Positions 2,612 to 30,622 of a stretch of 50,489 nucleotides of DNA are shown here, piece after piece. Source of the stretch: a virus; the IMG/VR virus record IMGVR_UViG_3300019360_000283, positions 1 to 50,489 of that record; one strand, written 5' to 3'. Position 1 is the first letter of the stretch. The number at the start of each line of letters is the position of its first letter. A program made the position numbers and the translations under genes. Below the pieces are notes generated by a model. The model did not search any database and was not told the origin of the DNA. It was given only the letters and a program-made list of their open reading frames with translations.

Positions 2612-3045
2612 GGGCACACCCCCGAGGTCGGCACCGTCCGGTGCGGCCTCAGCTGCAGGATGTTGCGGACGATCCGCCCCGCGGCATCTCGCAGGCACTC
2701 TCCTTCGCGCGCCGTCCCTTCGAGGTCCGGATCGGCAGTGCAGATGTCTGCAGTCGCGTCCACCGTGCCGGAGGGCAGGCAGATCACCTCGAGCTGCGGG
2801 AGCTCGAACCAGTCCTCACAGTCCGCTGCGAGACAGGTGCGGGCGCGGAAGATCCGGTTCACGTCCAGGATCGGCATCTTCAGGAGGGCTGTGCGGGCCT
2901 GGACCCCGCTGCCGCAAGAGGCCGGCGTGAACGTCGTTTCCATCACCCAGGGCCCGTCGGCGATCGGGCGAGATTGCACCTCGATGCGGTCGGCCGCCTT
3001 GAGGTTGACCAGCAGCGCCAGCACCGGCGTGATCGCGTCGGTCAT
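2608..3045 (-). CDS. Hypothetical protein between adhesin and endolysin
   Basis: This is a 145-residue soluble protein with eight cysteines, several in pairs within its middle third (RTCLAADCEDWFEL; VICLPSG). There is no signal peptide, membrane segment or motif I recognise. It overlaps the giant adhesin gene upstream and the endolysin downstream, each by four bases (ATGA), so it is very likely translated with them. It could be an adhesin chaperone or assembly factor by position, but nothing in the sequence proves that. Confidence 0.65.
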   Translation of the reverse strand: MTDAITPVLALLVNLKAADRIEVQSRPIADGPWVMETTFTPASCGSGVQARTALLKMPILDVNRIFRARTCLAADCEDWFELPQLEVICLPSGTVDATADICTADPDLEGTAREGECLRDAAGRIVRNILQLRPHRTVPTSGVCP

Positions 3046-6000
3046 GGGTGCTCCACGCAGTTCGCCCGGATCTTGGCGATCGCGGCGTTCGCGCAGGTGG
3101 GGACCCCGCCCACGAGCGCCGGGAGACAGTCATGCGGCGCGCTCGTGATGTCCTGGGTCGAGACCAGCCCGGCCGGCTGTCCGTTCACGAGGATCTGGTC
3201 CTTCCACAACCGCCCGCCGTAGGGGGCACCGCTGGTCGTGTCCGATGTGCCGAAAATGAAATCAAATGCCACATTCGGGAAATAGAAGAGCCCGTGATCC
3301 CAGACGTGGCTCATCTGCTGCCAGTCCGAGGTGTAGGAGGTGTCCGCGACGGCGCGGCAGGCGCCGCCGGCGCTGAGCGCGTTGCAGCATGGCCCCGTGC
3401 CATCGGTCGCCGCGCCAACTGCGCGATCGATGAGCGTGGAGCCAACGTCGGGATACCCCTTCGTGTTGTCTGCGCAGCTCGTCACCGGCTCTGCGCAGAA
3501 GGCCGATGCGACCCCCAGGTCGCAACCGAGGTCCACGCGGCCTGCGAAGGGGCCAGAGATCTCCACCTGATGATCGAAGATCCGAGTCGCGCCGTCGCAT
3601 AGCCCGTAGATTGAGCAGGCATACACCGCCTGCGTCGAGCCTGCGCTCGTGCCCAGCCCGCAGAAGGAGCCCCGGCCGTATTGATCTGCGACGTATTTCG
3701 ACACCGTGGAGAAGCGACAGGCGGCGCGCTCCATGCCATCGCGCGCGCCGGTGTTGGTGTTGAACCAGCCGCCGCTCGCGAGCCACCTGAGCTCGATGAC
3801 CCGCGCGCTGTTCTGGCTGCCACTGCCGCGCAGGGGCTCGAAGATGCTGTTAAAGATGACGGAGTCGCTTCCCAGGAATCCAGTGGAGCCGAGGCCTCCA
3901 ACGGCGAAGACGGTCTTTGTGGCCGTGCCGAGGCCGGCTGTGGGGTTGGCGACCCGCAGCTCGAAATCCATGGGCGGCAGATCGGCGCTCGCGCCCCCGC
4001 AACCCGACACCGTGCCGGTGAAGCAGGAGCGCCCGGCCTGCGGCGTCGAGCAGGTTGTCGGCACCACGTTCGACACTGTGCCGAGCGGCCGAGGAGTGAA
4101 CGCCTGTGATCCGCCGGTCGAGGTCTCCCCCAGGATCCACGCCCCGAGGATCCAGTTCACATCCGAGGGCGGCGGGCTGTCGTCGTCGGTGATTGTGCCG
4201 GTCGCAGTGCCATCGGAGATCGTGCAGGTGACGGGCGTGTTCATGACCACCGTGAAGGCCCGGGCACCGTCCACGAGCGCGTTGTCGGCGAGCGTGACGG
4301 CCAGTGACCCCATAGAGGTCACCCCCGCGCCGAAGCTCACCAGCTGATCGGTGATCCCGGTGAAGTCGGTTCCCGCCAGAGCTGTCCCGTTGACCGTAGA
4401 GAACTTCACCGAGGCTGTGCCCGTGCCGCTCGTGCGGGAGATCGTGAAGTTCATGGGCGACGTGTTCTCCGGCTGCGTCACGTCCGAAGCCCAGGAGAAC
4501 GTGCATGCGGCGTCGTTATCCTGGATCGTCACAGTGTGAACGCCCGGGCTGCCGAGCGTCGCGTTCGTCGGGCTGCCGATCGTGAGAGTGATCGTGAGGC
4601 CGGGATCGTTCACACCGTCATCAACGAGGGTGCAGGCCACGGAGCCGGTCAGGTTGCCCGCCGTGATCGTGATTGGGCTCGAGCCGCACGAGTAATCGCC
4701 CGGGCTCGCCGCCGAACCGCCCAGAGTGAATGGGACCGTCACAGGGAGACCTGTGGTATTCGACAGCCTGGCGACGATGTTGATCGTTCCAACGGCCTCG
4801 GAGGGGCTTGAGGTGGCAATCTCCCAGGCGACGGTGGGGACCGTGTCGTTGTCCTTCAGGGTCGCAACCGTCGAGGTCGCGCCCAGCTGGAAGCTGCAGA
4901 GGTTCTGGCAGGAACTCGAGTTGATGAGCGCGTTGAATGTCTCCGTCGCCGCCTCATCGTCCGGGTCATCGCAGGAGGGCACCGAGACGGAGCCCGCAAC
5001 CTGGCCACCGAAGAGCGTTGTGGAGAGGTTCCCGTTTCTGAAGTCGACCCCCGCCGGGCACATATCCACCTGCCGGGCGACGATGTTGTAGGTGCCGCCT
5101 CCGGCGTTCTCCTGGTCCATGACGATGATCTCGTCACCGACGATGGACGCGGGGATCTGAGGATATTGCCGGATGCCGGTCGTCGAGGAGAGGGTGAGCG
5201 CCGCCGTTTCCGCTGGCCAGGCGGCGCCGTCCTTCGTGAGGAGTTTCAGGACGTAATTGAACCCGCCCGGAACGCCGGTGTCATTGTTGTCGATATAGGC
5301 GAGGTGGAGTTTCGCCGGGGACGTGCGCGTGTCGATTCCGAGCGACACGCCGTCGTTCTCTCCGAGCACGATGGGAACGTCAGGAGACTTTGTGCCGAGA
5401 CCGGTGTGCGGCTGCCCGAAGGTGAAATACTGGATGTTCGCCTGCGCCGAGTTGCCGGTATCGTCGGCGATGTAGACGACATGGATGATCCCGGTCGCCG
5501 GGTCGATCACCGCGGAATAGCGCCGGTCGTCGAGGCGGGTGCCGTCGCACGACCCTGAGGGAAACCGCGTGGACCCGCTCGTCTGACAGTCATTCCCGGA
5601 GGTCGTCAGTGCGAACCAATTGCTCCAGCCGCCATCGCTCCCGGCCGCGTTCACAGAGAACACGAGTTGCCCGTTCGAAGGGACCAAGTCGCTGCCCTTG
5701 TCGTAGCACATGGCCCCGACGGCGTTCCCGGCTCCCGCGTCCAGGTCAAATAGGGTGCAGCCCTTCTCGCCCTCTCCGAAGATGTTCGAGTTACCGGGCT
5801 CGACCCAATCGTCGTTACAGTCTCCGGCGACGGAGGCATTGCACCCGGCCGCGCCCCAGGTCGCGATGCTGTTCGGGTTCGTCGAGCGCAGGATGACCAC
5901 CGTGCTATTCGGGCCGCCATCCCCCTTCATGCCGATGACGTAGTAGCGGCCGGAGGAATCCTTCAGCTGGCCGCCGTAGAAAATGATGGTGCTCGTGCCG

Positions 6001-8804
6001 GTGGACGCACCGCACGACGACACGCTCGACGTCGACCCAGCGCCGCAGTAATGGAGAATCTTGGTGTCCGTCAGACTGAGATCGCCGTCGACGGCGTCGA
6101 TGTCATAGGCTCGCTCGACGTATTTGTCCGGGTAGACGGTCGTGGAGGGATAGGCAGAGCGCGTCAAGATCTTCATGCCGGTGCCGTCGATGATCGGCAT
6201 CAGGGCAGTCATGCCCGCCCCCGCGGTGCCGTCAATCAAGAAGGGCGTGCTCCACGTCAGGCCGTCGAGAGAATGCTGTTCCCACGCCTGGCCAAAGCAG
6301 CCGTGCGCAGCGACGCACGATCCGCCTCCGCAGGTGGAACTGGAGAAGCAGGATGCGCCGGGAGTCGGCCCACCCGAGCATGTGCCGCCGCAGTCAGCGG
6401 TCGCGCTTTCCCCGTTGCAGGCCTGTCCGACGTTCGGTCCCGAGAAGCACACGCCTTTCTCGAGGATGGCGTAGGTGTAGTCCGTCGTCGGGTCCGTCAG
6501 GACCTTCCGGCTGTGCGCGCGGGTGATCGCGTGCGCCTGCTCGGTTGTCCCGAGGGTGACGCCGGACGTCGAAGCAACCACCGGAGCGCCGCCGGTGGCG
6601 GTGCCGTCTGTGAAGCGGACTGTGACGTCGATGTTTCCGCTCGCCGGCGCCGTGAGCGTCAGAGGGATGACGACATTCGCCCCCTCGGTGACGGCCGCGG
6701 GCGTTCCGATGGAGAGGATGGGGGGCGGCGGGGCGCCGCCGTCGAATTCTCCAGGCCCGATGTCGCAGGCGGATCCCAGGACCGCGTGTCCGCAGTTCGC
6801 CGGGTTCGGATCGCCGGCGTCCCGCAGGGGAGAGGTTGCGCCGGGAATGAACGTGCGGTTCACCGCCGTGATCGGGTTGCCCTTGATCATGGCGCGAGTG
6901 CCGTCGCCTTCGGGATCTTGGCCACCGTAGGACAGCCACCACCACTTCAGCGGAGGCGGGTTCGTCGACATCGGAGGGTCGAACCTGACACGTCTCTCGC
7001 AGACGAAATTGCAGGAGCCGCCGCCGCTGCATGGCACTGAGGACGAGCAGCGGGAGCCGTCGTTGCTGCAGAACCCCCCCGGGGCGTTCGCGTCGTTGGA
7101 GATTAGCTGCCGCGTCGTCCCGTCTAGATTGAATTCAACGAGGTCACCGACTTGCCACGAGGACAGCCACGTCGAGCGGCCCCAGAAGTATTGCAACCGG
7201 TCAGGCGTTCCGTCCGCATCCGTGTCGGTCGATGGAGTCGGGCAAAGGTTCACGCTGTCGCACTGGCACTCCACCATGCCGCCCCAGAGCGAGCCCGTCG
7301 TGCCGTAGAGCGACCCTGAGCTCACCAGATTGCAGCTCCCCCCGCCGGTGCAGTTCCCGCCGGAGGTGCAGGCGGCGCCGGGATTCGAACCGCCGACGCA
7401 GTAGCCGCCAGGATTTGCGCGCCAGTCTTTGTTCCCGAGGATGATGGAGTTCACGTCGAGGGCCGGGATGATGATCCCGGGTGCCGCGTCGGTGAGCGCC
7501 TGCCACGCCGCGAATTGCGAGGCGCTGCGCTTCGTGCCGTTTCCTGTGGGAACGTCGCGATCGTCGTTCCAGGACAGCCCGCTCGAGCTGTTCCCGAAGT
7601 TCAGGCCGCCGACATAGGCATTCCAGTCGGAATCGAACGTGACGGTGGGTGTGGGCCCGTTCTCCCCGTTGCAGCCGCTCGTGCAGCCGAAGTTGATCCC
7701 CGCGATCTCCTTGGACTGAGCCGCGGTGGAAGTGTCGAACGAGACGAAGACGTTGTTCCGTGACTTGATCGTGCCGCCCATCGAGAGCTCGTGATCCGGC
7801 GATGGAAGACGGAAGCCCCCGACGAACAGAGTGTTCAGGAGCGTCATGCCGTTGAGCTTCAGGGTCGGCGTTCCGCGCGTCTGGAATTGCTCGCGAAAGT
7901 CCGCGCCGGCGAGGACCACGGAGTTCTTCACGAGGAGGTTGTTCTCCTCATGGATCTCGAAGACGTGATTCTTGTTGCCGCCGACCTTGAGCCCGTCGAT
8001 CGTGCAATTCGTGCACGTGGTCTGCAGGACCAAGCCGTTCCAGTAGCCCCAGAGCGTGACGTTGCGGACGGTCGTGCCCGTCTCGGCGGAGCCGGACATG
8101 ATCATCAAATAGGCGGGCGCGGGGCTCGAGACCTGGTAGGGGATCTTGATGAGCCCGTTCTCGATGAGGTTGTTCGTGCCGCCGGATGTCTCGATGACGG
8201 CGACGCGCGTCTGGCTGCCGCTGTTATCGTTCGTCACCGAATCGACCGCGTTGAAGTTCCGGAGGATATTCCCCGTGGAGCCGGATCCGCATGGACGGAT
8301 GCTGCTGGCCCCGAGCGGACCCCCATCGAAGGTGAACCCATCCACAGTGATGAACGAGCGCGACGTCAGGTCGAGCGTTGGCCCATTCGCGCTCTGGATC
8401 GTGCAGGCGCCGCCCGGGCAGAGGTATGTAATCGGATGCCCGGAGCTGCCGCTGCCGGTCGGACGGAGGGTTTCCCCGTTGCTGGCGCCGCCGATCACGA
8501 GATTGCCGTAGACCCCGTTCGAAACGGAGCAGATGTCGTCATCATCGAGTGGTGAGAGGTTCGACTGACCCCCCGTTCCCCCATCGCAGGCGTCGATGGT
8601 GGCGACGGCGCAGTCGCATCCCCCAGAGGGCACCGTGGTCGGACACCCGGACGGGGTTGTGGCCTGCAGGAGGGTCCGGTCGACGGTCCCGTTGCAACTC
8701 GTGTTATTGCCTCCGAGCGTCCGAACGAAGCGCGTTGCGGCGAGCGCGGGCGTGATGACAGCAATGAGGACGGCGAAGACGAGGAGTCTGGCCGGGGCGC
8801 GCAT
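3042..8804 (-). CDS. Giant secreted multidomain adhesin or tail-spike-like protein
   Basis: The start is the ATG at 8804, overlapping the upstream stop (TAATG), which gives 1920 residues. The protein begins with a typical Sec signal peptide (RLLVFAVLIAVITPALAA). Residues about 60-330 have the short, repeated Asn/Gly/Thr-rich rungs of a right-handed beta-helix. Cysteine-rich repeats of the form C...GxxC...C-x-GG-x-C occur near residues 475, 580 and 800. A Calx-beta-like domain begins near 696. A sialidase-like region with an Asp-box (SLDGLTWS, near 847) follows, then two more Calx-beta-like domains (about 1325-1420 and 1435-1545) and an unassigned C-terminal domain that may be lectin-like. Its place after the tail genes suggests a receptor-binding spike. 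The signal peptide is unusual for a virion protein assembled in the cytoplasm, so a secreted or surface product is possible. Confidence 0.8.
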   Translation of the reverse strand: MRAPARLLVFAVLIAVITPALAATRFVRTLGGNNTSCNGTVDRTLLQATTPSGCPTTVPSGGCDCAVATIDACDGGTGGQSNLSPLDDDDICSVSNGVYGNLVIGGASNGETLRPTGSGSSGHPITYLCPGGACTIQSANGPTLDLTSRSFITVDGFTFDGGPLGASSIRPCGSGSTGNILRNFNAVDSVTNDNSGSQTRVAVIETSGGTNNLIENGLIKIPYQVSSPAPAYLMIMSGSAETGTTVRNVTLWGYWNGLVLQTTCTNCTIDGLKVGGNKNHVFEIHEENNLLVKNSVVLAGADFREQFQTRGTPTLKLNGMTLLNTLFVGGFRLPSPDHELSMGGTIKSRNNVFVSFDTSTAAQSKEIAGINFGCTSGCNGENGPTPTVTFDSDWNAYVGGLNFGNSSSGLSWNDDRDVPTGNGTKRSASQFAAWQALTDAAPGIIIPALDVNSIILGNKDWRANPGGYCVGGSNPGAACTSGGNCTGGGSCNLVSSGSLYGTTGSLWGGMVECQCDSVNLCPTPSTDTDADGTPDRLQYFWGRSTWLSSWQVGDLVEFNLDGTTRQLISNDANAPGGFCSNDGSRCSSSVPCSGGGSCNFVCERRVRFDPPMSTNPPPLKWWWLSYGGQDPEGDGTRAMIKGNPITAVNRTFIPGATSPLRDAGDPNPANCGHAVLGSACDIGPGEFDGGAPPPPILSIGTPAAVTEGANVVIPLTLTAPASGNIDVTVRFTDGTATGGAPVVASTSGVTLGTTEQAHAITRAHSRKVLTDPTTDYTYAILEKGVCFSGPNVGQACNGESATADCGGTCSGGPTPGASCFSSSTCGGGSCVAAHGCFGQAWEQHSLDGLTWSTPFLIDGTAGAGMTALMPIIDGTGMKILTRSAYPSTTVYPDKYVERAYDIDAVDGDLSLTDTKILHYCGAGSTSSVSSCGASTGTSTIIFYGGQLKDSSGRYYVIGMKGDGGPNSTVVILRSTNPNSIATWGAAGCNASVAGDCNDDWVEPGNSNIFGEGEKGCTLFDLDAGAGNAVGAMCYDKGSDLVPSNGQLVFSVNAAGSDGGWSNWFALTTSGNDCQTSGSTRFPSGSCDGTRLDDRRYSAVIDPATGIIHVVYIADDTGNSAQANIQYFTFGQPHTGLGTKSPDVPIVLGENDGVSLGIDTRTSPAKLHLAYIDNNDTGVPGGFNYVLKLLTKDGAAWPAETAALTLSSTTGIRQYPQIPASIVGDEIIVMDQENAGGGTYNIVARQVDMCPAGVDFRNGNLSTTLFGGQVAGSVSVPSCDDPDDEAATETFNALINSSSCQNLCSFQLGATSTVATLKDNDTVPTVAWEIATSSPSEAVGTINIVARLSNTTGLPVTVPFTLGGSAASPGDYSCGSSPITITAGNLTGSVACTLVDDGVNDPGLTITLTIGSPTNATLGSPGVHTVTIQDNDAACTFSWASDVTQPENTSPMNFTISRTSGTGTASVKFSTVNGTALAGTDFTGITDQLVSFGAGVTSMGSLAVTLADNALVDGARAFTVVMNTPVTCTISDGTATGTITDDDSPPPSDVNWILGAWILGETSTGGSQAFTPRPLGTVSNVVPTTCSTPQAGRSCFTGTVSGCGGASADLPPMDFELRVANPTAGLGTATKTVFAVGGLGSTGFLGSDSVIFNSIFEPLRGSGSQNSARVIELRWLASGGWFNTNTGARDGMERAACRFSTVSKYVADQYGRGSFCGLGTSAGSTQAVYACSIYGLCDGATRIFDHQVEISGPFAGRVDLGCDLGVASAFCAEPVTSCADNTKGYPDVGSTLIDRAVGAATDGTGPCCNALSAGGACRAVADTSYTSDWQQMSHVWDHGLFYFPNVAFDFIFGTSDTTSGAPYGGRLWKDQILVNGQPAGLVSTQDITSAPHDCLPALVGGVPTCANAAIAKIRANCVEHP

Positions 8805-10966
8805 TACCAGGCCTCGATCAGCATTTGCTGACATTTGACCTGGTGGGTGTTCGTCGCGTTCGACGCCCACTGCCCCGTGACGACGATGTCGCGCGTCGCG
8901 TTCATCGTCGTGGTCACGGTGGCGTCTGGGCTCGAGCCTTTGAACGATCGCGCGGAGAGGGCGCCTGAGGCACCCTCCACTGTCACCTTCCCGAACGAGA
9001 TCGTCGTTCCGGTCGGGGACCCGACGGTGCGGACCTCGATGAGCCCGATCGCCTCCCACTGCCCTTCGGATCCGGAACCGAACGAGGCCTGCAACGTGAG
9101 TGCGGTCGTCTGGAGGAGGAGATCTCCGGAGACGCCGCCAGACCGGATGCGGATGGTGAGCGTCGGCGGCCCGGCACCAGTGAGATACGTTCCGCTCGCC
9201 GTAACCTTGAGGTATCTCCCCTGCACCCAGAAGGCGGTGGGGATCGTGACGGTGCCGCTGAAGGTCCCGTCGCAGAGCGAGGTTTCTGCCGTGGACGTGT
9301 CATCGACGTAGGCGGTGCCGGCACCGCGCATTTCCGCCAGCACTGAGCTGATGCGGCCGCTGTTTCCGGCGTTGGTGGTGGGGAGGTCCGCCATGACAAT
9401 CGCGCGAGGGGTAATCGCGGCGGTAGATCCGTCCGGGCTGGCAAGAAAGAGATTCGGGGCGACAGAGGTGAAGCAGGAGCCGGTGGTGCAGCTTCCGACT
9501 TGGTCGATATCCCCGCCGCCGGAAGACACCGTGCAATCAGTCCGACCCGAACCCGAGTTATCGACGCAGCTCACGCCGGAGCCGATCCAGTTGATTGTCT
9601 TGCGACGCGTGAGGCCGGTGCCCTCGTCGGCGACCTCGAGCAATGCGGATCCGGTCACGTATTCGCCGGACAGCGTTGTCGAGAGAACGGCCTGGTCGGC
9701 GTTTGCAATCGGCACAGGCGGCTTCCAGGCCATCACACCGGCCTGGAACAGGCAGACGCGCTGAGCCGATGAGTTGTCGCAGTCGGTCATGCCCCAGCGG
9801 CCGGGAACCTTCGACGGCACCATCGGGTTGGTGAGGTCGTGGTTGTCCGCATACGCCATGACGTTCCCGAACATGCCGGGGCTCGCCGACTGGTCCGGCT
9901 GCTCGATCTTTCCGAGGGCGTAGAACGTCGTGCGGCCCGGGTCCACCGACATGCCCGAGTCGGCCATCGATCCGCTGCTTCCCGCCGCTTGGATCGCGTC
10001 CTGCGCTCCCACGGCGGCCGAGCTCTCCGTCTTCGTCCAGTTGCAGCTCCCGGTGTTCAGGTCGTTACGCCACCAGTTCGGTCGGTTCGAAGCGTCGGCA
10101 CAGGTGCCGCCGGCACAGAGAAGGAACATTTCGCCGACGGTGGTGCAGGTCGTGGGGAGGGCGCTTCCCGTTCGAGGCCGGAAGAGAACGTCGCCCAGGT
10201 CGGCGCCGCCGAGGAAGTAGCCGTTGGTGATGTAGACGGCACCGCCGTTGTTCGCGCTGATCCCGACGCTGGCATTCACCCCGAGCGCCGCGATCGTGAG
10301 TTGCGCGTTCTCCCCCAGCGTGTAGATGTTCATGCCGCTGTTGTCCGCGGTGGTCTCGATCTCCAGCGCGCCGGTGACGTCGGAGAAGTCCGAGATGATC
10401 TCCAGCTTCCCGCCCGTCCGGACTTCGAGACCGGAGGGGACACCGGAAGTCAGCAGGTCAGAGATGAGCCGCGTGCAGAGCAGGCTCGAGCTGTTCGAGC
10501 AGGCCGAGGCATCACCTGAGAAGCGGACGAAGATCTTTCCGACGACGGTCAGGGTGTTGGTCGCGGGGTCGTAGAGGTATTCGTTGTCCTGAACGATCGG
10601 GTTGCCGGCGCCTCCCCCGAGGAGCGGCTTACCAGTGGCCAGCGCATTCGCGGGGCCCAAGACCTCCGCCTTGTCCACGATCCCATCGACGTCGGTGTCG
10701 TAATCGCCGGTGGACATGTTCCCGGAGCCCCCGCCCGCGGCGGTGCAGTCCGTCCAGGTCCCGCCGTTCGCAGGGCAGCAGTAGCTGCGGCCCTTGTTCG
10801 GACCCTGAGAGACCTGCTGGACGCGTCCAGCGGGCCCAGCGGCGCAAGAGTTCGTCCCGGGCGTCGTGGACGGCGCCGAGACGACGGTCTCCACCGGCGG
10901 GCGCACCTGGGCGCGCGCGAGGGAAGCGCTGGTGATGAGGAGGGATAGGACCGCCAGACGGCGCAT
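8804..10966 (-). CDS. Tail-fibre-like protein with signal peptide
   Basis: The protein has 720 residues from the ATG at 10966, which has GGAGAC upstream. A longer TTG start would add ten charged residues in front of the signal peptide. The N-terminus (MRRLAVLSLLITSASLARAQ) is a Sec signal peptide. The middle is rich in Gly, Asn, Thr and Ser with fibre-like repeats (for example GGGAGNPIVQDN, ISANNGGAVYITNG). The last 150 residues form a compact beta-rich domain (GRYLKVTASGTYLTG...WEAIGLIEVRT) like the knobs of phage fibres. It ends one base into the next adhesin gene. A receptor-binding fibre is the likeliest role. Confidence 0.75.
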   Translation of the reverse strand: MRRLAVLSLLITSASLARAQVRPPVETVVSAPSTTPGTNSCAAGPAGRVQQVSQGPNKGRSYCCPANGGTWTDCTAAGGGSGNMSTGDYDTDVDGIVDKAEVLGPANALATGKPLLGGGAGNPIVQDNEYLYDPATNTLTVVGKIFVRFSGDASACSNSSSLLCTRLISDLLTSGVPSGLEVRTGGKLEIISDFSDVTGALEIETTADNSGMNIYTLGENAQLTIAALGVNASVGISANNGGAVYITNGYFLGGADLGDVLFRPRTGSALPTTCTTVGEMFLLCAGGTCADASNRPNWWRNDLNTGSCNWTKTESSAAVGAQDAIQAAGSSGSMADSGMSVDPGRTTFYALGKIEQPDQSASPGMFGNVMAYADNHDLTNPMVPSKVPGRWGMTDCDNSSAQRVCLFQAGVMAWKPPVPIANADQAVLSTTLSGEYVTGSALLEVADEGTGLTRRKTINWIGSGVSCVDNSGSGRTDCTVSSGGGDIDQVGSCTTGSCFTSVAPNLFLASPDGSTAAITPRAIVMADLPTTNAGNSGRISSVLAEMRGAGTAYVDDTSTAETSLCDGTFSGTVTIPTAFWVQGRYLKVTASGTYLTGAGPPTLTIRIRSGGVSGDLLLQTTALTLQASFGSGSEGQWEAIGLIEVRTVGSPTGTTISFGKVTVEGASGALSARSFKGSSPDATVTTTMNATRDIVVTGQWASNATNTHQVKCQQMLIEAW

Positions 10967-14341: not shown

Positions 14342-15273
14342 GCCGCCTCGCTCGGAGCGGTCAACTCGAAGCCGTAGTGCGTCCGCAGGAACCCAGGCGG
14401 GATCTCGATCTTCAGCTTCGGATCCTGATAGACCCGCTGGTAGTGCATCCCGGCGTTCGTGTGCTGCTCGCGATCGACCCAGAGGGCGAGCGTCCCGGGG
14501 AGCGGCCCGGCGAGCCAGCGGCGCAGAGCCTTCAGCTGCAGATCGTCCTCGCAGCCGTGCGCGATGTTCGCCAGCTGCAGGTCGAGCTTCGTCATGGGCC
14601 GGCGTGTGCGGACGATCTCGACGGCGCCGTCCCCCTCATTCGCGGCGTAGCCCGCGGTCGGTTCCGGGTCGATCTTCCGGAAGCCCTTGTGGAGATCGAC
14701 GAGCCCTCCGAGGAAGACGCGGTCCCAGAAGGCGTCGGAAGCGGCGTTATAGCCGGCGGTCAGGTCATAGCGCAGCACGACATCGAGCCAGGCGGCCGCC
14801 GGATCCGGCGCCGCGGCGGCCAGGCGGAGGACCCAGTTCCCCTCTCCGCAGGAGAAGGACCGCGAGAACGGCGGTGGGAGGAGCGCCCCGCTCCCCGGCG
14901 CCGAGGTCCCGCCGCTGTATTGCTCGAGCACGAGCGTCGCGTTGTCCGCCGCGCGCTGGTCGGTTGGCTTGAACATCGCAGCGAGAGCGATCTCGGTGCC
15001 CGCCTCGCGGATGATGGGGAGCAGTTCGGGCAGGGCGACCCGCTGGCGCGCGATCGCCTTGTTCCCGGCGGTGCCGCTCGAGGTGTTCTGCCGGAGGCCT
15101 CGCGCGGATGGGAGGCCGTCGCCGGCGGAGTGGAATTCCGCGGAGGAGACCAGGCTGATCCCGTTCACCGACGCGGCCGTGTCCCAGCCGGAGGGGGCGG
15201 CGCCGCCGGCGTCGGACTCGAAAGACGAGTTCACGAGCGGCGCGAGACCGAAGAGGATCAGCGGGAACCCCAT
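14338..15273 (-). CDS. Distal-tail-like protein
   Basis: The protein has 311 residues, directly after the tape measure. The ATG at 15273 (overlap TGATG) has AGGGGG seven bases upstream; a GTG one codon earlier is an alternative. The N-terminal part (FESDAGGAAPSGWD, FHSAGDGLPSARG) looks like a carbohydrate-binding-type beta sandwich of the sort found at phage tail tips. The C-terminal half (LANIAHGCEDDLQLKALRRW, LALWVDREQ) resembles distal-tail proteins. Position supports a Dit-like role in joining the tube to the tip. Confidence 0.6.
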   Translation of the reverse strand: MGFPLILFGLAPLVNSSFESDAGGAAPSGWDTAASVNGISLVSSAEFHSAGDGLPSARGLRQNTSSGTAGNKAIARQRVALPELLPIIREAGTEIALAAMFKPTDQRAADNATLVLEQYSGGTSAPGSGALLPPPFSRSFSCGEGNWVLRLAAAAPDPAAAWLDVVLRYDLTAGYNAASDAFWDRVFLGGLVDLHKGFRKIDPEPTAGYAANEGDGAVEIVRTRRPMTKLDLQLANIAHGCEDDLQLKALRRWLAGPLPGTLALWVDREQHTNAGMHYQRVYQDPKLKIEIPPGFLRTHYGFELTAPSEAA

Positions 15274-17681
15274 CACCGGGCCCCCTGCGGCAGCGGGAGC
15301 AGTTCGCCGCGGCCGATCGCCTTGCGGATAGCCTCTGTGATCGTGCGGGTGAGGTCATTGGAGAGACCGCTGTCGCGCCAGTTGTCCCCGTTCACCGTGA
15401 CGGCGATGTTGATCGTCGGCCCGCCGCCGATCCCCAACTCCTCCACAGCGCGACGCGCGCGCGGGCCGCGCAGCGGCAGGACGGCCTCTGGCCCGGCCTC
15501 GCCGATGATCGCGCGCACCGGACCGCGATCCACGATGCCGCCTTCGGCCATCGCCGTGCCCGCAAGGATGCTGGCCGAGAGGCCCGCCCCGGTCGCCGCG
15601 GCGCCGGCGGCGCCGGCGCTGGCGGCTGCCACGGCCGCGGCCGCCGCAGCGGGAGCGAGGAAGGGACCCACGATCGGGATCGCCGCGATCGACGAGAAGG
15701 TGTTCGTGAAGACCGTGGCGAGGCTCCCCGCCAGGAGCGTCGCGTTCTCCGCTGCGGCGGCGACCTGGGCCAGGCGGCCGACGATGAGCCGCCGGATCCC
15801 CCACTCCGTGAGCATGGCGATGATCTGCGCTGTCGCCTGCTGGGCAAAGCGCTTGAAAGCCTCGCCGGCGTCCTCTGCCCCGACGATGACCTGACCCACG
15901 GTCTGGGCAAAGCCGGTGATGATTTTGTCCGTGAATGCCTGCCAGTTGTCGCGCATCTGATCAAAGCCCGCGTTGAGCGCTTCGATCCATTCCTGCTTGA
16001 TCGCGATGTTCGCGATCCGCTGGAATTCCTCGGAAACAGACACTCCGGCTGCAGCGGCCGCGTCCGCGAGCTGCAGGATCTCCGCTCGATTCGCCGCGAT
16101 GACCGCCTGGAGGGGGATCCCCTCCTCCTGAGCCGCGATGAACATCTGGCGCAGCTGCTCGCTCATTGTGGCGGCGGCCTCGCCGGTTAGGATCTGGGCC
16201 TCGGCCAGCTTCTCCCGGAGGTTCTTGATCCAGCCTTCCAGGTTCGGACCGAGGGGCACGTTCTGTGACAGTAGCTCCTGGATCGATGCGAATGGCTTCG
16301 TGGGCAGCGCCTCGATCTTGTCCTTGATCGCGCCGATCGCCTCGCCGAACTGGAACGCGCGCTTGGCGATTTCGTCGCTGAGGAACTTCTGGTCCAGATC
16401 CGGCGCAGAGGCCTTGAGTTTCTGGAGCGCGTCGATCGTCTCCAGCAGCTTCGTGGGGCTCTTGCTGAGGATCGCTTCGAGCGGATCCCGCACCTTCTTC
16501 AACGGAGCCTCGGCGCCGAAGAAGGACTCGGTGAGTTTCTTGAACGCCGCGTCGTAGCCCCCGACGATTTTCACGCCGCGGCGCTGCAGGTCCTGCAGCC
16601 GCTCGGTGGCCGCGCGCCACTTCTCGAACGCCTCCGATAGGAGCGTGGCCCCGCTGGCCAGGGCGAGCTCGGCGTCTGTCAGGTCTCGAACCGGCTTCGG
16701 ATCGGTGCTGTTCTTCAGATCCGCTGCCGCCTTGGCCGCGTCCGTGGCGTGGACGGCGATCGCCTTCAGCACAGCCTCGAGCTGCTCTCCGCTCTGGGTG
16801 TTGGCGAATGCGACACCGATCTCGGAGAGCAGGCGCATCCATTCCTGCCAGCTCCCGCGCTCGATGACCTCGTTGATGCCGCCGAGAGCGTCGCGGAGAT
16901 CTGCCAGGGGAACGAGGAGATTCCAGACGTTGAGAGCGAGATCGCCGACTCGCACTTTGAGATCGCCCACCAGGTCGCGCAGCTGCCTCGTCTGGGTCGC
17001 GATGCTCTCCGTGGACTCCTTCGCGCGGCCGCCGTAGAGATCGGACAGCTCCCCGACGATGATCCCGACGCGCTCGGTCGCGGTCGCCTCCTCGAGCCTC
17101 TTGCGGGTCAGTTTGTCGAGGCCGGGCAGGAGGGTTTTCAGCCGGAGATTGTTTCCCTCAATCGCGTCGCCGATAGTTTCGGTGACGGTGGCGAGGGGCT
17201 TGCCGCGCGCGGCCGCGGCGTCCACCGCCGCGGTGAGAGCGTCGATCGAGCCGTGCACGTCTTGGGTGAGCGTGAGGAGCGTGTCGAAGGACTCCGAGAG
17301 TTCGTCCTTCGTGAAATTGGAGGCGAGGCGCACCGAGTTGAGCCAGGCATCGACCGGCTCGCGCGCCGTCTCCCAGCTGTTGCCCGTGGCTTCGATCGCC
17401 GCGCGGAGCTGGTTCGTCCGCTCGGCCGCCTTGATCGCTTGGTTGATGGAGTCTGTGACGAACTGGATTGAGTTCCGGATTACTTCGAGCGCCACCTGCG
17501 AGCTCGCGATGGCGATGCCGATGCTGAGGATCTGACTCCCGAGGGAGCCCATCGCGGCGCCGGCGGTATCCGCCGCGGCCGCCGACTTGAGGATCGCCTT
17601 CTCGGCGTCGCTCGCGCCCTTAGCGAGGCGCGCGGTGCCGCGGTCATCGACCTCGAGCTGGATCGTGACGACGCGCGCCAT
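15273..17681 (-). CDS. Tail tape measure protein
   Basis: The protein has 802 residues. The N-terminal half is Ala-rich and helical with coiled-coil character (for example AERTNQLRAAIEATGNSWET), followed by hydrophobic helices (about residues 645-715). The C-terminus carries the tape-measure signature GGIVDRGPVRAIIGEAGPEA and then VLPLRGPR. The protein would set tail length; 802 residues suggests a tail of roughly 120 nm by the usual 0.15 nm per residue. It follows the chaperone frameshift gene as expected and is separated from the 17682 stop by no bases. Confidence 0.9.
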   Translation of the reverse strand: MARVVTIQLEVDDRGTARLAKGASDAEKAILKSAAAADTAGAAMGSLGSQILSIGIAIASSQVALEVIRNSIQFVTDSINQAIKAAERTNQLRAAIEATGNSWETAREPVDAWLNSVRLASNFTKDELSESFDTLLTLTQDVHGSIDALTAAVDAAAARGKPLATVTETIGDAIEGNNLRLKTLLPGLDKLTRKRLEEATATERVGIIVGELSDLYGGRAKESTESIATQTRQLRDLVGDLKVRVGDLALNVWNLLVPLADLRDALGGINEVIERGSWQEWMRLLSEIGVAFANTQSGEQLEAVLKAIAVHATDAAKAAADLKNSTDPKPVRDLTDAELALASGATLLSEAFEKWRAATERLQDLQRRGVKIVGGYDAAFKKLTESFFGAEAPLKKVRDPLEAILSKSPTKLLETIDALQKLKASAPDLDQKFLSDEIAKRAFQFGEAIGAIKDKIEALPTKPFASIQELLSQNVPLGPNLEGWIKNLREKLAEAQILTGEAAATMSEQLRQMFIAAQEEGIPLQAVIAANRAEILQLADAAAAAGVSVSEEFQRIANIAIKQEWIEALNAGFDQMRDNWQAFTDKIITGFAQTVGQVIVGAEDAGEAFKRFAQQATAQIIAMLTEWGIRRLIVGRLAQVAAAAENATLLAGSLATVFTNTFSSIAAIPIVGPFLAPAAAAAAVAAASAGAAGAAATGAGLSASILAGTAMAEGGIVDRGPVRAIIGEAGPEAVLPLRGPRARRAVEELGIGGGPTINIAVTVNGDNWRDSGLSNDLTRTITEAIRKAIGRGELLPLPQGAR

Positions 17682-18427
17682 TTACCGACTCTCCGCCCGG
17701 GCGCGCGGCCGCAGCTCATCTCCGGCGGCCTTCAAGCCTTCGACGATCGCGTTCAGCTGATCAATGAGCCGCTGTGCACGCCGACGGTCCATTTCGAGCC
17801 CCGCAAGCTCCATCACCGCGTCCTGTAATCCGAACTGCTCGACGGCGGGGGCGCTCAATCTTCGATAGAGCTCCCACGCCAATGCGACTCCGTCCGGGAT
17901 CGGATTCCGCTGCGTCTGTTCCCACAGCGGGCAGAGGCGACAGTCGTCGATCGTCGCCGGCGGCAGGCTCGCCTCCGCCCGAACGTCCCTGCAGGTCAGG
18001 CAGTCGGGGATGCCGGTGTATCGGGCCCAGAAGAGGCCCTCAGACCGAGCAAACTCCCGGACAATCCGTTTTTTTCCTGCGCATCCCTCCCGATGCCCAT
18101 CTCGCCCACCATCCAGCTGATCAGCGCGACGAGGTCATCCAGCGGCAGCTTGTTGATGAGCCGCGGTTCGAATTCGAGATCGTGGCCCTCCTGGTCCCGG
18201 AGGCCGCTCCAACCGCGGATTGCTTTATGGGCCAGCTTGAGGATCTCCGTCGCGTCCTTCCTCTGGGGGTCGAAACCCAAGAGATCTACGATCGTCGGCG
18301 TCTCGACCTCGAACACCGTCGCGCCTTCGGGCGGCTCCGTCTCACCGCCACTCAGCTCGACGACCTTGCCGTCGTCCTCGATGTAGACCCGCGCCGGTTT
18401 CGGCCGGATCTTGATGGTTCGTGCCAT
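17682..18427 (-). CDS. Tail assembly chaperone fusion made by -1 frameshift (GT-like)
   Basis: Residues 1-120 are shared with the shorter chaperone. At the slippery run on the minus strand (A AAA AAC, plus-strand 18068-18074) the -1 frame is open without a stop for 128 codons down to 17682, giving about 248 residues. The added part contains CLTC and CRLC 17 residues apart, a likely zinc site, and then a helical end (AWELYRRLSAPAVEQFG). This copies the lambda G/GT arrangement, in which a small fraction of ribosomes shift to make a chaperone that recruits tape measure to tube subunits. A separate TTG start at 17882 would make only the last 66 residues and has no clear Shine-Dalgarno. The frame was read base by base; frameshift use is inferred. 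Confidence 0.8.
17996..18427 (-). CDS. Tail assembly chaperone, zero-frame product (G-like)
   Basis: This 143-residue acidic, soluble protein starts at the ATG at 18427 (MARTIKIRPKPARVYIEDDG). It lies between the tail tube gene and the tape measure, the fixed position of gpG-like chaperones. It contains a beta-rich first third and a helical second part (DLVALISWMVGEMGIG). The slippery heptamer lies at codons 118-120, and the reading frame ends 23 codons later. Known family behaviour is that the short form is made in excess over the frameshifted form. Confidence 0.8.
   Translation of the reverse strand: MARTIKIRPKPARVYIEDDGKVVELSGGETEPPEGATVFEVETPTIVDLLGFDPQRKDATEILKLAHKAIRGWSGLRDQEGHDLEFEPRLINKLPLDDLVALISWMVGEMGIGRDAQEKNGLSGSLLGLRASSGPDTPASPTA
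18068..18074 (-). promoter_or_regulatory. Programmed -1 frameshift slippery site A AAA AAC
   Basis: On the minus strand the codons read GAA AAA AAC, so the heptamer A AAA AAC has the X XXY YYZ frame of a strong -1 site. It is preceded by another A, giving seven in a row. A GGGCC/GGCCC hairpin is possible about 30 bases downstream; no closer stem is convincing. Confidence 0.8.
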
Positions 18428-18454: not shown

Positions 18455-19564
18455 TTACGCCGCCGAGACGGAGTTGGTGTTTATGAGCCGCGCGCGCACT
18501 GGTGTGCGCCCGATCACTACCCACGCCCAGGCGGATCCGTGGCCGGCCGCGACGGGTGTGCTGATGTTGAACGTCAGATCGACCGGGGTCCGCTGCCCCG
18601 GACCTCCGGCGTTTACCGGACCGGTGGCGAGCGCCAGGCTCGGGAGGTCGAACGAGAGGCGATATTTCGAAGCGGCCGCGGCGCCTGGGATGTCGCAGCC
18701 CAGCCATTCAACCGTCGCCTTGTAGCGCTTCGGATTGCTGCAGGGCTGTCGGATCTGCGACGCTTTGATGATCGCATCCACGGTGGCGTTGTAGTTCGCC
18801 ACGGTGAACATCAGCTGTCCGTCGGAGAGCTTCTCGGTTTCAGGCTCGCCGATCGTGCCGGCGCCCGTGCCGCTCTCGTGATCTCCGGAGAGGTTCCGCT
18901 TCGGGGAGATCTTCAGGTTCGTGCACCGGATCTCGTCGCCGCCGGCCAGGTTTCCTTCCGCACCGGTGACCTCCTTAATCAGGAGTGTCATCTGGTTGAA
19001 GATCGCGAGCAGCCCGTCCGTGGGGTTGGTAAGGGCCCCGAACTCGGATGCCTTGTTCACGATGACGGCCGTGTCCCGCTCGCACTTGTTCGAGAGGGAG
19101 TTCCAGCCGGCCTGCAGCTTTCCGCCTTCATGGGAGAGCTCGAGGCCGGTGAACTTCACCGATGGGTATTCCCACGGCGCGGACCCGAGCGATCCCAGGC
19201 CCTTGTCGATCGCGAGCGTGCCGAACTTACCCGTATTCGAAGGCTGGAAGATCATCTCGTGCTGATGGATGACCGTCTCGCCGGCGACGAGGGTGACAAC
19301 GTCGGCGCCCATGAACAGAGCGAGGCGGCGCTCGAGACCGAGATAACGCACGGCTTCGACGAAGCCGCCCTCGGCGTTGATATTCCCCTGCATCTGCCCC
19401 GACGTCATGACGTCGCCGACGTTCTCGTCGAGGATCGGTTCGGGGATCCCCTCGGGCATCGACTCCGACAGGATCTTGACGCCGTCGTTCGCGCCGAGCG
19501 GAACTGCGGTGTTCCACGTCGCGGCCTTCTTGAACCCGACTCTCCAATCGACGGTCGACGACAT
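18455..19564 (-). CDS. Tail tube (major tail) protein
   Basis: The protein has 369 residues, starting MSSTVDWRVGFKKAATWNTA, an N-terminus typical of siphovirus tube proteins (GxKxExxWxT type). The rest is beta-rich with a repeat-like pair of domains and ends in LTFNISTPVAAGHG. It lies between the tail terminator and chaperone genes, where the major tail protein belongs. It is long for a tube protein (usually 150-350 residues), so an extra Ig-like surface domain may be included. No signal or membrane segment is present. Confidence 0.8.
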   Translation of the reverse strand: MSSTVDWRVGFKKAATWNTAVPLGANDGVKILSESMPEGIPEPILDENVGDVMTSGQMQGNINAEGGFVEAVRYLGLERRLALFMGADVVTLVAGETVIHQHEMIFQPSNTGKFGTLAIDKGLGSLGSAPWEYPSVKFTGLELSHEGGKLQAGWNSLSNKCERDTAVIVNKASEFGALTNPTDGLLAIFNQMTLLIKEVTGAEGNLAGGDEIRCTNLKISPKRNLSGDHESGTGAGTIGEPETEKLSDGQLMFTVANYNATVDAIIKASQIRQPCSNPKRYKATVEWLGCDIPGAAAASKYRLSFDLPSLALATGPVNAGGPGQRTPVDLTFNISTPVAAGHGSAWAWVVIGRTPVRARLINTNSVSAA

Positions 19565-21497: not shown

Positions 21498-23891
21498 TTA
21501 CGGGATGCCCAGCTGGAAGCCGCGGAAGTCGCCAACTTCCGGCTTCCAGATGTGCCGCACCTTCATCGTCACGACGTCCTTGTCGAAGAATGTCCCGACG
21601 CGATCGAGGTCCTGGACAAAGAGCTCCGGTTCCTCGTTGCCGTTCAGGAAGCCGACGATGATCATTTCGGCCTCGCTCGGATCGGCCGTGAGCGTGTAGG
21701 CGTCCGCGTCCACCGACTCGTAGTACGGCACCTCGATCAGGTCCCAGCCATACTTCGCCCGGAGGATGTTCGGGATCTGCTGGTTCTCCTTCGTGATGGT
21801 GCGAGCGGTGCCCGCCGCCTGGTTGCTGTCGGTGTCCACGAGCGTAGGCTTGCCGTCCGAGAAGATGAACCCGTAGAGCGCGTCCATCGTGGAAGGACCG
21901 CAGAAGACGTGTCGCGCGGTGAACCGGCCGGCTTCGCGGGCGTCGAGATCCTTCTGGAGGAACATCTTGCGGCGCATCGCCTGCAGGTTCGCGAGCGACG
22001 CGGCCGAGGCCGTGATGTTCGAGTGGCCGGCTGCCGCGAGCGCAACGCCGTCGTAGATCACGGCGTTGGTGAGGATGAGATCGAAGACGGCCTCGTTCAG
22101 CGTGCGGGCGGCCGCACGGGCGAGCTTCGTGGGGATCGACCGCAGCTTCGTCAGGTCGTCGTTGAGCATCGCCTCCCAGGTCCAGTTGGCGAGCCCGCCG
22201 CGCTTCACGATCTGTAGGGTGATCTCTTCCTCGTTCGGATAGTCCGTCACCTCGAGGTAGGCCCCGTTCTGCGCCACGACGGCGAGGTTGGGGAACTCAC
22301 CGAACCGCTCGAAGCGCCACGTCTTGAAGTCGGTGACAGGGACGGGCCGGGCGACGAGCTTCCACTGCAGGTCCTGCTGCGCGTATTCCCGCAGCATCGC
22401 CTTGTGCATCCGATCGGAGAGGATCAGCGGGTAGGTCGCGGTCGTGATCCCTTCGAGGATCGACCGATCGTGCCGCACAGCCATGTAGGCCTGGGCGAAC
22501 TGGTTCCCGTCCCAGCTCATCCCCTCGACAGCGCCCTGCGGACGATTCTGCCGCCCGTAGAACCCGGCCCCCTCCATCCACATGTCGCCGGTCATCACCT
22601 GGTAGGCCTGCTTCGGCCCGGTGAACGCGGGGACCTGGATCTTCGTCTTCCCGTCGCCTTCGAGGACGCCGAAGCGCTTGCCCTCGATCATGGCGTCGAA
22701 AGCCGCCATCACCTTGTCGGCCGAGTTCCACTCCTCTCGCATGTAGGGTCCCCGGTGCTGGATCCCCTCGAGGAGCCCGCCACCGGGCGCGCCGGCGCCG
22801 CCGAGGCCCTTCTTCAGGCCGGCGATGAACTCGTCGAGCTCGGTCCCCTCGATGACCCCCTGCGCCTCGAGGCGCTTCTTCCAGTGCTCGCGCGTGAACT
22901 CGACGAGCGCCTTCGGCAGCTTCGACGCGGCCAGCGCCGCCTCGAGCGCCGAGAGGGAATTGGTCTTCAGGAGCCGCTTCACGTCCTCCGACAGCCCCTT
23001 CACCCTCGATTCGAGGGCCGCGTCCTCCTTCTTCTCGGGCTCCTTGACGGGATCCCCCTCGGCCGCCTTCTTCGGCGCGGGCGGGTCCTCCGCGGGGGCG
23101 ACGAGTGCGATCGCTTCGAGGGCGGCCGCCTGGAGGGCGGGATCCGTGATCTTCAGACCCAGCGCCTCCATGAACTTGCTCGCGATGTCCTTGTGCTCGG
23201 CGATGAATGCCTGGGCGGTTTCGATCCCGTCCGGGAGTTTCAGCGCTTCGACGAGGGAGCGCTTCTCCTTCGCGACCATTCGCATGAGGCGCTTGAGAAA
23301 GTCCTTCATCGGATTGACCTCCATGAGCGCTTCAAGGACCGGAACGAAGCCGCCTCCGGCGCTCGGGAATGACACGACCTCGAAGGCCGTGATCTCGGAA
23401 ACGGTTTCGGGCTCGACGCCTCCACCGGGGAGCTGCTTGCCTTCGAGCCCGCCCTCGGGCACGAAGATCGAAAGACCCAGGTCACGACCGAGCGCCCGCG
23501 TGCGCCCCAGAAACCCGCTGAACCAGCTGCCCTTGTCGGTGAGCTCGACGTCGGCCATGACCGCCGCCTTGCCGCCCTCCTCCACTACCTCGGCGTTTCG
23601 CACCACGCCGATCTGCGCATCCGGCAGCAACTGCGGAAGGAGCCCCCGCACTGCCGGCGGGAGCTTCATGCGCAACTGCTCCCAGTGGGCGGCGAACGTC
23701 CGGTCGCCGTTCTGCGACATGTCGTAGAACGTGATCGGCTTGCCATTGGCGATCGCAGCGATTTGTTCGAGCGCCTTGCGGGTCCAGTTGTTCCCGTTCT
23801 TCGACTTCCCTTCCCGGATGAGCCGCGCGCGCATGCGCGAGCCCTCGGCCATGAAGAGCGATTCGAAGAGGTGGAAGCGCTTCGGTTTCAT
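21498..23891 (-). CDS. Fused prohead protease, scaffold and major capsid protein
   Basis: This is a 797-residue polyprotein. Residues 1-190 look like a herpesvirus-assemblin/U35-type prohead protease: likely catalytic His69 (FAAHWEQL) and Ser141 (LGRDLGLSIF), then EITAFEVVSFPSAGGG. Residues 195-345 are a charged, helical scaffold-like region with a Pro/Lys/Glu linker (EDPPAPKKAAEGDPVKEPEK). Residues about 370-797 are an HK97-fold major capsid protein. The protease would act after assembly to remove the scaffold and free the capsid subunit. An internal start (ATG at 23309, GGAGG eight bases upstream) can produce scaffold-capsid without the protease. Such fusions are known in other phages. The cleavage sites cannot be placed from sequence. 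Confidence 0.85.
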   Translation of the reverse strand: MKPKRFHLFESLFMAEGSRMRARLIREGKSKNGNNWTRKALEQIAAIANGKPITFYDMSQNGDRTFAAHWEQLRMKLPPAVRGLLPQLLPDAQIGVVRNAEVVEEGGKAAVMADVELTDKGSWFSGFLGRTRALGRDLGLSIFVPEGGLEGKQLPGGGVEPETVSEITAFEVVSFPSAGGGFVPVLEALMEVNPMKDFLKRLMRMVAKEKRSLVEALKLPDGIETAQAFIAEHKDIASKFMEALGLKITDPALQAAALEAIALVAPAEDPPAPKKAAEGDPVKEPEKKEDAALESRVKGLSEDVKRLLKTNSLSALEAALAASKLPKALVEFTREHWKKRLEAQGVIEGTELDEFIAGLKKGLGGAGAPGGGLLEGIQHRGPYMREEWNSADKVMAAFDAMIEGKRFGVLEGDGKTKIQVPAFTGPKQAYQVMTGDMWMEGAGFYGRQNRPQGAVEGMSWDGNQFAQAYMAVRHDRSILEGITTATYPLILSDRMHKAMLREYAQQDLQWKLVARPVPVTDFKTWRFERFGEFPNLAVVAQNGAYLEVTDYPNEEEITLQIVKRGGLANWTWEAMLNDDLTKLRSIPTKLARAAARTLNEAVFDLILTNAVIYDGVALAAAGHSNITASAASLANLQAMRRKMFLQKDLDAREAGRFTARHVFCGPSTMDALYGFIFSDGKPTLVDTDSNQAAGTARTITKENQQIPNILRAKYGWDLIEVPYYESVDADAYTLTADPSEAEMIIVGFLNGNEEPELFVQDLDRVGTFFDKDVVTMKVRHIWKPEVGDFRGFQLGIP
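23307..23322 (-). promoter_or_regulatory. Internal ribosome binding site and ATG for scaffold-capsid product
   Basis: On the minus strand GGAGG lies eight bases before an in-frame ATG (Met195, MKDFLKRLMR), exactly where the protease domain ends and the scaffold-like region begins. This predicts a second product of 603 residues lacking the protease, comparable to the nested lambda C/Nu3 arrangement. Confidence 0.6.
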
Positions 23892-29383: not shown

Positions 29384-30622
29384 CTACGCACAAGCCGTCC
29401 CCTTCTTCGCCCTGGGTCGCTTCGCCTTGATTCCGGTGTGCTCCTCGAAGCGCTGCACGATGACGTCGCAATAAGCGGGGTCGAGCTCGAGCAGACGGGC
29501 CTGCCTCGCGAGGCGATGTGCCGCAATCAGCGTCGAGCCCGACCCGCCGAAACAGTCCAGGACCAGGTCCCCTCGCTGCGTGGAGTTGCGCAGCGCGATC
29601 TCGATCAGCTCGATGGGCTTCGCCGTCGGGTGCAGCTCGCTCGCGCGCGGCCGGGGCACGTCGAACACGGAGCTCTGCGCGTTGTCGCCATACCATCCGG
29701 CGCCGCCGCGGCCCCGTCGCCCCTTGGCTGGCGCGTGGCCGTAGAGAATCGGCTCGTGCTGGTAGTGGTAATCGCTGTGGCCCAGGACGAACACGTCCTT
29801 CCGCCACACGAGCGTCTGGTGCAGCACCCATCCCGCCTCGAGGAACGCCTCGCAGAAGACCGCCGCGCCACGGCCGGCGGGATGCGCGATGTAGATCGCC
29901 GCACCCGGCTCGAGCACGGCGCAGGCGGTCGCGAAGGACGCGCGCAGCAGCTCCCCAAGGCCCTCGGGGTCGTCCCCCTCGAAACGCAACCGGCGCGCCG
30001 TCTTCCCCTCGTAGCGCACGCCGTAAGGCGGGTCCGTCCACAGGCAGTCAGCGCGCGCACCCTGCATCAGCCGCGCCATGTCCTGCGCGCTGGCCGCGTT
30101 CCCGCACAGCAGCCGATGGACGCCGAGCTCGATCAGATCGCCCGCGCGCGTGATCGGCTGGTCCGGTGGGGCCGGGATGGCGTCCGGGTCGGTGGCGCCG
30201 TCCGTGACGAGACCCGCCGCATCGAGCAACTCTCCGAGCTCGGCGTCCGTGAAACCGGTTGCGACGAAAAGATCCGCGTCTTCCGCCTGGAGCTCGCGCA
30301 GCATGGCCCCGAGTTCCGGCGCCCACTCGCTCAGCTCCGCGACGCGATTGTCTGCGATCGCGAACGCCGTGGCCTCGACGCCCTTCAGCGGCAGCCGGAC
30401 GGCGTCGACATGCGTCCAGCCGAGCGCCATCGCCGCGGCCAGTATCCCGTTGCCCGCTCTCACGACGCCCTTCCCGTCGACGACGATCGGCTTGCGCTGG
30501 CCGAAGCGCCGGAGCGATGCCTTGATCCCGTCGATCGAACGATCGCCATGCACGCGCAAGTTCGCGGGATCGGCAGAGAGCGATCGGATCGGCAGCGATT
30601 CGACTCGGAGTTTCGCCGGCAC
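29384..30622 (-). CDS. ParB-like domain plus N4/N6 DNA methyltransferase
   Basis: The protein has 412 residues with GTG start at 30622. Residues 1-110 form a ParB/Srx-type nuclease-like domain (VVRAGNGILAAAMALGW). Then come DPPYG (197-201) and FGGSGST (about residues 363-369). DPPY precedes the FxGxG motif, the order of beta-class amino-methyltransferases. The pattern is known in phages, where it methylates the viral genome and may protect it from host restriction; the target site cannot be read from sequence. It lies between the replication genes and the terminase. Confidence 0.85.
   Translation of the reverse strand: MPAKLRVESLPIRSLSADPANLRVHGDRSIDGIKASLRRFGQRKPIVVDGKGVVRAGNGILAAAMALGWTHVDAVRLPLKGVEATAFAIADNRVAELSEWAPELGAMLRELQAEDADLFVATGFTDAELGELLDAAGLVTDGATDPDAIPAPPDQPITRAGDLIELGVHRLLCGNAASAQDMARLMQGARADCLWTDPPYGVRYEGKTARRLRFEGDDPEGLGELLRASFATACAVLEPGAAIYIAHPAGRGAAVFCEAFLEAGWVLHQTLVWRKDVFVLGHSDYHYQHEPILYGHAPAKGRRGRGGAGWYGDNAQSSVFDVPRPRASELHPTAKPIELIEIALRNSTQRGDLVLDCFGGSGSTLIAAHRLARQARLLELDPAYCDVIVQRFEEHTGIKAKRPRAKKGTACA

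Follow-up and report, generated by a model that had tools for sequence, protein, structure and literature searches.

A phage tail assembly chaperone with a conserved, predicted helical four-cysteine segment in the -1 reading frame

The tail assembly chaperone of the virus described here is quite probably of the lambda G/GT type, made with a programmed -1 shift, and its T part adds a helical four-cysteine (Cys4) domain that most likely holds one structural zinc. The virus is known from a 50,489-base IMG/VR record, referred to below as the window. The siphovirus-like late operon on its minus strand encodes, besides the tail protein, the chaperone and the tape measure, proteins for head morphogenesis, the portal and the neck, and a Phage_capsid_4-type capsid protein. 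To our knowledge, little is understood of the contact that T, as part of GT, makes with the tail tube protein, and a compact helical Cys4 domain that aligns clearly and is reached only via a frameshift would provide a handle on this contact. The parts of the locus, in window coordinates, are as follows.

18455..19564, minus strand: probable major tail protein, a role assigned from its position and a weak phrog_290 match (E 8.8e-4, label minor tail protein)
17996..18427, minus strand: G ORF, the 0-frame product of the tail assembly chaperone, 143 aa; relatives match phrog_313
18068..18074, minus strand: slippery heptamer A AAA AAC, read from the sequence in the G frame (GAA AAA AAC)
17996..18067, minus strand: 0-frame tail past the heptamer, 23 codons and a stop, unconserved in sequence comparison
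17997..18062, minus strand: predicted RNA stem-loop that begins 5 nt after the heptamer (MFE -30.6 kcal/mol, z -2.78)
17682..18068, minus strand: T segment in the -1 frame, 128 codons and a TAA stop (17684-17682), conserved in 13 other sequences
17991..18002, minus strand: first CxxC (CLTC), conserved columns in the alignment
17931..17942, minus strand: second CxxC (CRLC), invariant alignment columns
17880..17882, minus strand: first ATG/GTG/TTG of the -1 frame, a TTG, downstream of both CxxC pairs
15273..17681, minus strand: tape measure protein (phrog_2854, E 2.8e-8)

The gene order in the window is thus tail protein, chaperone, tape measure, the match of the upstream tail protein to phrog_290 being weak, and the ATG of the tape measure gene (17681) is one base past the end of the -1 frame (17682). 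A previous sequence-only reading had placed a G/GT-type -1 frameshift here, at an A AAA AAC in phase with G. We find the heptamer in that frame at 18074-18068 on the minus strand, and re-reading of the sequence confirmed a -1 frame open for 128 codons from the slip to the stop at 17682; in full, this frame extends from 18134 to 17682 and has 150 codons, 128 of them after the slip. Both CLTC and CRLC are present as that reading had reported, with 16 residues between them rather than 17. The frameshift as a whole is well supported by synteny, the heptamer, the conserved -1 peptide, the downstream RNA structure and the lack of a common start before the cysteines.

Three other features of the window were observed. 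The capsid protein (21498-23891, 797 aa) matches Phage_capsid_4 over residues 478-791, and its PHROG matches start at residue 254. An N6_N4 DNA methylase domain is present in a 412-aa protein (29384-30622) whose gene adjoins the packaging genes, and a 2005-aa ORF that is partly rich in Cys (3042-9059) lies downstream of the tail genes.

Relatives of the T segment were reached through the capsid gene. Single-protein scans of viral contigs with T, G, MCP or terminase revealed no relatives, T alone as a tblastn query against phages and plasmids gave only chance-level matches, and a first scan of genome contigs with the T alignment likewise found no relatives. MCP alignments later succeeded, and the capsid-anchored scans with them yielded loci L005-L084 and L086-L161 from IMG/VR and L162-L241 from GTDB genomes. 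The closest T segment, in L090, is 38% identical to that of the window (E 1.6e-23; capsids 45% identical) and has CREC, CGRC and the heptamer A AAA AAC. The T segment of L089 is 30% identical (E 4e-15; capsid 45%), follows G GGA AAC and has one Cys moved. Heptamers were also seen in L141 (G GGA AAG) and in L133 and L207 (A AAA AAC), and L005 and L100 have a CxxC..CxxC T segment in the same -1 geometry without a canonical heptamer. Pairwise E-values to the window T range from 1.6e-23 (L090) to 0.019 (L207), and leave-one-out profiles recovered each of eight T segments, the window at E 2.9e-22 and L207 at 0.0048. As individual queries against phages, the T segments of L207 and L102 gave no match, and that of L132 matched only Microcystis phage Mae-JY22.

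The similarity extends beyond the cysteines. The Cys-free tail of T (82 residues behind the cysteines) alone finds L090, L005, L089 and L100 at E < 1e-3, and all four of these phages carry a Cys cluster, which is CxxC..CxxC in three of them and has one Cys lost and one gained in L089. In the 14-member alignment, C26, C46 and C49 never vary, and 13 of the sequences have C29. The exception is L089, in which the second Cys of the first pair is missing (C..S) and the second cluster has an extra Cys (CGECADC), so that the total stays at four. Counts on the 12-row alignment A4 are biased, because five of its rows (L102, L151, L136, L115 and L141) were chosen by eye for their Cys; alignment A10 omitted L102, L151, L136 and L115.

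Profile searches provided a blind test of the slippery site. Of 395 genomes from the phylum to which the L166 genome (a MAG labelled Desulfobacca) belongs, a profile of eight T segments matched 7, the source genome among them. Each of the six new loci from that phylum combines CxxC..CxxC with a heptamer in frame at the junction. An extended profile added two further loci, both with A AAA AAC, from one genome of a nine-genome phylum sample, in which two genomes matched, including the source genome of L207; three other genome samples gave no profile matches (0/398, 0/296 and 0/251). All eight new loci (L246-L253) therefore have an in-frame heptamer at the junction, A AAA AAC in seven and G GGA AAC in one. 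This is a blind result, because the profile held no heptamer information; the A9 and A10 profiles include the Cys columns, and the heptamer is the only blind feature among the profile-found loci. The T profile finds unannotated frameshifts.

RNA folding was evaluated over 66 nt from 5 nt past the site, at 20 sites and 240 nearby controls. The mean z was -1.93 at the sites versus -0.26 in the controls (Mann-Whitney p 7e-6), and z was -2 or lower at 12 of the 20 sites versus 20 of the 240 controls. Single-site values ranged from -6.24 (L151) to +1.35 (L090), and downstream structure was absent in some members (L090; L115, +0.17; L251, +0.51). In L005 (13398-14128) and L100 (13154-13956), GTAAAA is found at the junction, with downstream RNA z of -2.0 and -2.8, respectively; this junction is possibly an A AAA-type slip site.

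Two explanations would do without a frameshift. One is that the -1 frame is open by chance in GC-rich DNA, or that an assembly error splits one gene. The DNA has 67% GC, and in 11 other late genes the -1 frame is open for at least 130 codons at 1403 of 4862 codons (29%). Among 5000 dinucleotide-shuffled versions of the 0-frame ORF, 14 had A AAA AAC in frame and 503 had some in-frame XXXYYYZ with Z other than G. Because long open -1 frames are common in this genome, the case for the frameshift rests on homology, and it is homology that contradicts this explanation and leaves it next to no chance: across phages the -1 peptide retains 15-38% identity, and independently assembled sequences share its -1 geometry. 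Distant phages thus keep the -1 frame, which the sequence-only reading had expected to be broken by stop codons if its proposal were wrong. The other explanation, that T is a separate gene with its own start and that the heptamer is incidental, could draw on the Mae-JY22 record, which starts its T piece downstream (L002, 11658), and on the ATG, GTG or TTG that precedes the CxxC in the -1 frame of 8 of 17 Cys-type loci. The other nine, the window included, have no such codon in the stretch from the preceding -1 stop to the first CxxC, which rules out ordinary initiation as the source of the T segment there. The first common start of the window's -1 frame (17882) comes after both CxxC pairs, and junction heptamers accompany all eight blind matches; we consider a separate gene very improbable.

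Eight of the ten G proteins compared match phrog_313 ("Tail assembly chaperone"; best E 3.4e-11), which places the G part in this kind, whereas the window G itself has no phrog_313 match at E 0.1 or better. It also has no Pfam match, and among PHROGs it weakly matched a family of unknown function. A leave-one-out HMM of the other G proteins finds the window G with E 1.9e-4, and L089 and L115 were not recovered in this way. The structural model of G has a pLDDT of 71.8, and its top VIA hit was the HK97 tail assembly chaperone 2ob9 (2ob9_B), at a weak Z of 3.9 (rmsd 5.2, 79 aligned residues).

The T segment is a conserved four-Cys helical domain absent from Pfam, PHROGs and NCBIfam, none of which gave a family match for the window T. 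Its AlphaFold2 model, made from 12 sequences, has a mean pLDDT of 86.3 and shows nine helices and no strand, with the Cys pairs near helix starts. The suggestion in the sequence-only reading that the segment resembles a zinc ribbon is not supported: the predicted model has no beta strands flanking the Cys knuckles, and its all-helical nature speaks instead for a small helical Cys4 site. No zinc-ribbon profile matched the window T, and among 12 members Zn_ribbon_4 matched one (E 0.058) and DUF1451 another (E 0.12). Comparison of the model with PDB and BFVD (Foldseek, VIA) returned nothing significant and no solved structure that is close; two tape-measure chaperones appeared among the top BFVD hits, but with E-values of 2.0 and 4.0 they are not evidence. 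Binding of heme c was also considered, as weak cytochrome matches appeared, and was rejected, as no His comes directly after either CxxC in the window (in L133, one CxxC has such a His).

A metal site in T is likely, because the Cys cluster is real and conserved, and we infer from the sequence that the four cysteines bind zinc. The frameshift may also be real while the cysteines serve another purpose, such as disulfides, binding of another metal (e.g., an Fe-S cluster) or a redox switch. The assignment of zinc is drawn from Cys conservation, L089 rearranges the Cys pairs, and several of the related genomes share a phylum with the Desulfobacca MAG, where Fe-S chemistry would be plausible. However, two CxxC pairs are spaced here as in structural zinc sites, the Cys count remains four in L089, the lack of CxxCH in the window makes heme c unlikely, and tail assembly takes place in the reducing cytoplasm. 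We therefore regard a role other than zinc binding as unlikely.

With a structural zinc as the preferred reading, the locus may function as follows. The majority of ribosomes would yield the 143-aa G, and a minority would slip one base back at A AAA AAC, aided by the stem-loop 5 nt downstream, to give a 248-aa GT. A single structural zinc ion, most likely bound by the four cysteines of CLTC-x16-CRLC, would keep the short T helices together for docking on the tail protein. By analogy with lambda, G would coat the tape measure and T would recruit the major tail protein, its presumed partner, and both would depart before the tail is completed. In lambda, according to PMC5009743, G binds the tape measure, T binds the major tail protein, and both leave. 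For TP901-1, PMC4493119 describes that loss of T abolishes tails and that a permanent fusion gives non-infectious particles.

Cysteines in T are not confined to the window type. A script run over 242 sequences produced 84 candidate frameshift rows in 78 loci. In the classification of candidates, 161 loci had 5 kb behind the capsid gene, and 94 of these had no row, including the segment-bearing L005, L092, L100, L133 and L207; the rows of L021, L078 and L124 and the second row of L171 are probably spurious. Two CxxC classes account for 15 of 64 non-redundant candidates, and 43 of the 64 have fewer than four Cys (both counts uncurated). The sequence-only reading had called such an added segment less usual. 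This holds for the family libraries and for the literature searched, whose titles and abstract beginnings, with most subscription journals outside the scope, contained no report of a zinc or Cys4 tail assembly chaperone; it does not hold for Cys-bearing T segments as such, which recur in these 15 candidates and in more by profile search. T-like -1 segments that differ in pattern, with a Cys cluster at the extreme C-terminus ending in CATCP and with TTTTTT heptamers, were also observed in L009 (7502-7948), L013 (4705-5085) and L167 (6921-7300).

By profile comparison, shared ancestry of the window-type T with A6 (Mae-JY22 type), A7 (L022/L094/L104 type) or A8 (Cys-free type) was not supported, and the comparison of A8 with the Cys4 family (A9) was not significant. 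A6 and A7 resemble one another (E 1.8e-5), and a short N-terminal stretch is common to A6 and A8 (E 5.6e-5). Since the other Cys-bearing T types lack detectable homology to the window T, Cys in T either arose more than once or diverged beyond recognition. It is conceivable, though we think it quite doubtful, that there is a broad, so far unrecognised class of metallo tail chaperones, in which the frameshift-only T gained a Cys4 metal site in several phage lineages and the binding or loss of metal (zinc or redox) acts as a switch by which the tail tube protein is recruited or released. If so, tail assembly would be tied to the metal or redox conditions within hosts such as sulfate reducers.

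Among known phages, Mae-JY22 (PP438414, L002) has the same gene order, an in-frame A AAA AAC and a Cys-bearing -1 segment, whose Cys pattern is CxxCP..C..CP and which has no detectable homology to the window T. Loci of this type are L002, L132, L189, L206, L169 and L040, most of them with CxxCP..C..CP. The chaperone frameshift of Mae-JY22 at A AAA AAC (L002, 11104-11900) is unannotated, and the record gives two separate hypothetical proteins, an example of how annotation overlooks the G/T join. T segments of the phrog_680 type (e.g., L017 and L008) occupy the same gene position behind a slippery site, in phages with related capsids, but are without cysteines of the window kind. From lambda gpG/gpGT the window T differs in its conserved Cys4 cluster and in matching no Pfam, PHROGs or NCBIfam family by sequence. 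Like lambda gpG/gpGT and TP901-1, as described in PMC5009743 and PMC4493119, the chaperone lies between the tail tube and tape-measure genes, has a -1 site of the form XXXYYYZ near the 3' end of G, and carries T at its C-terminus.
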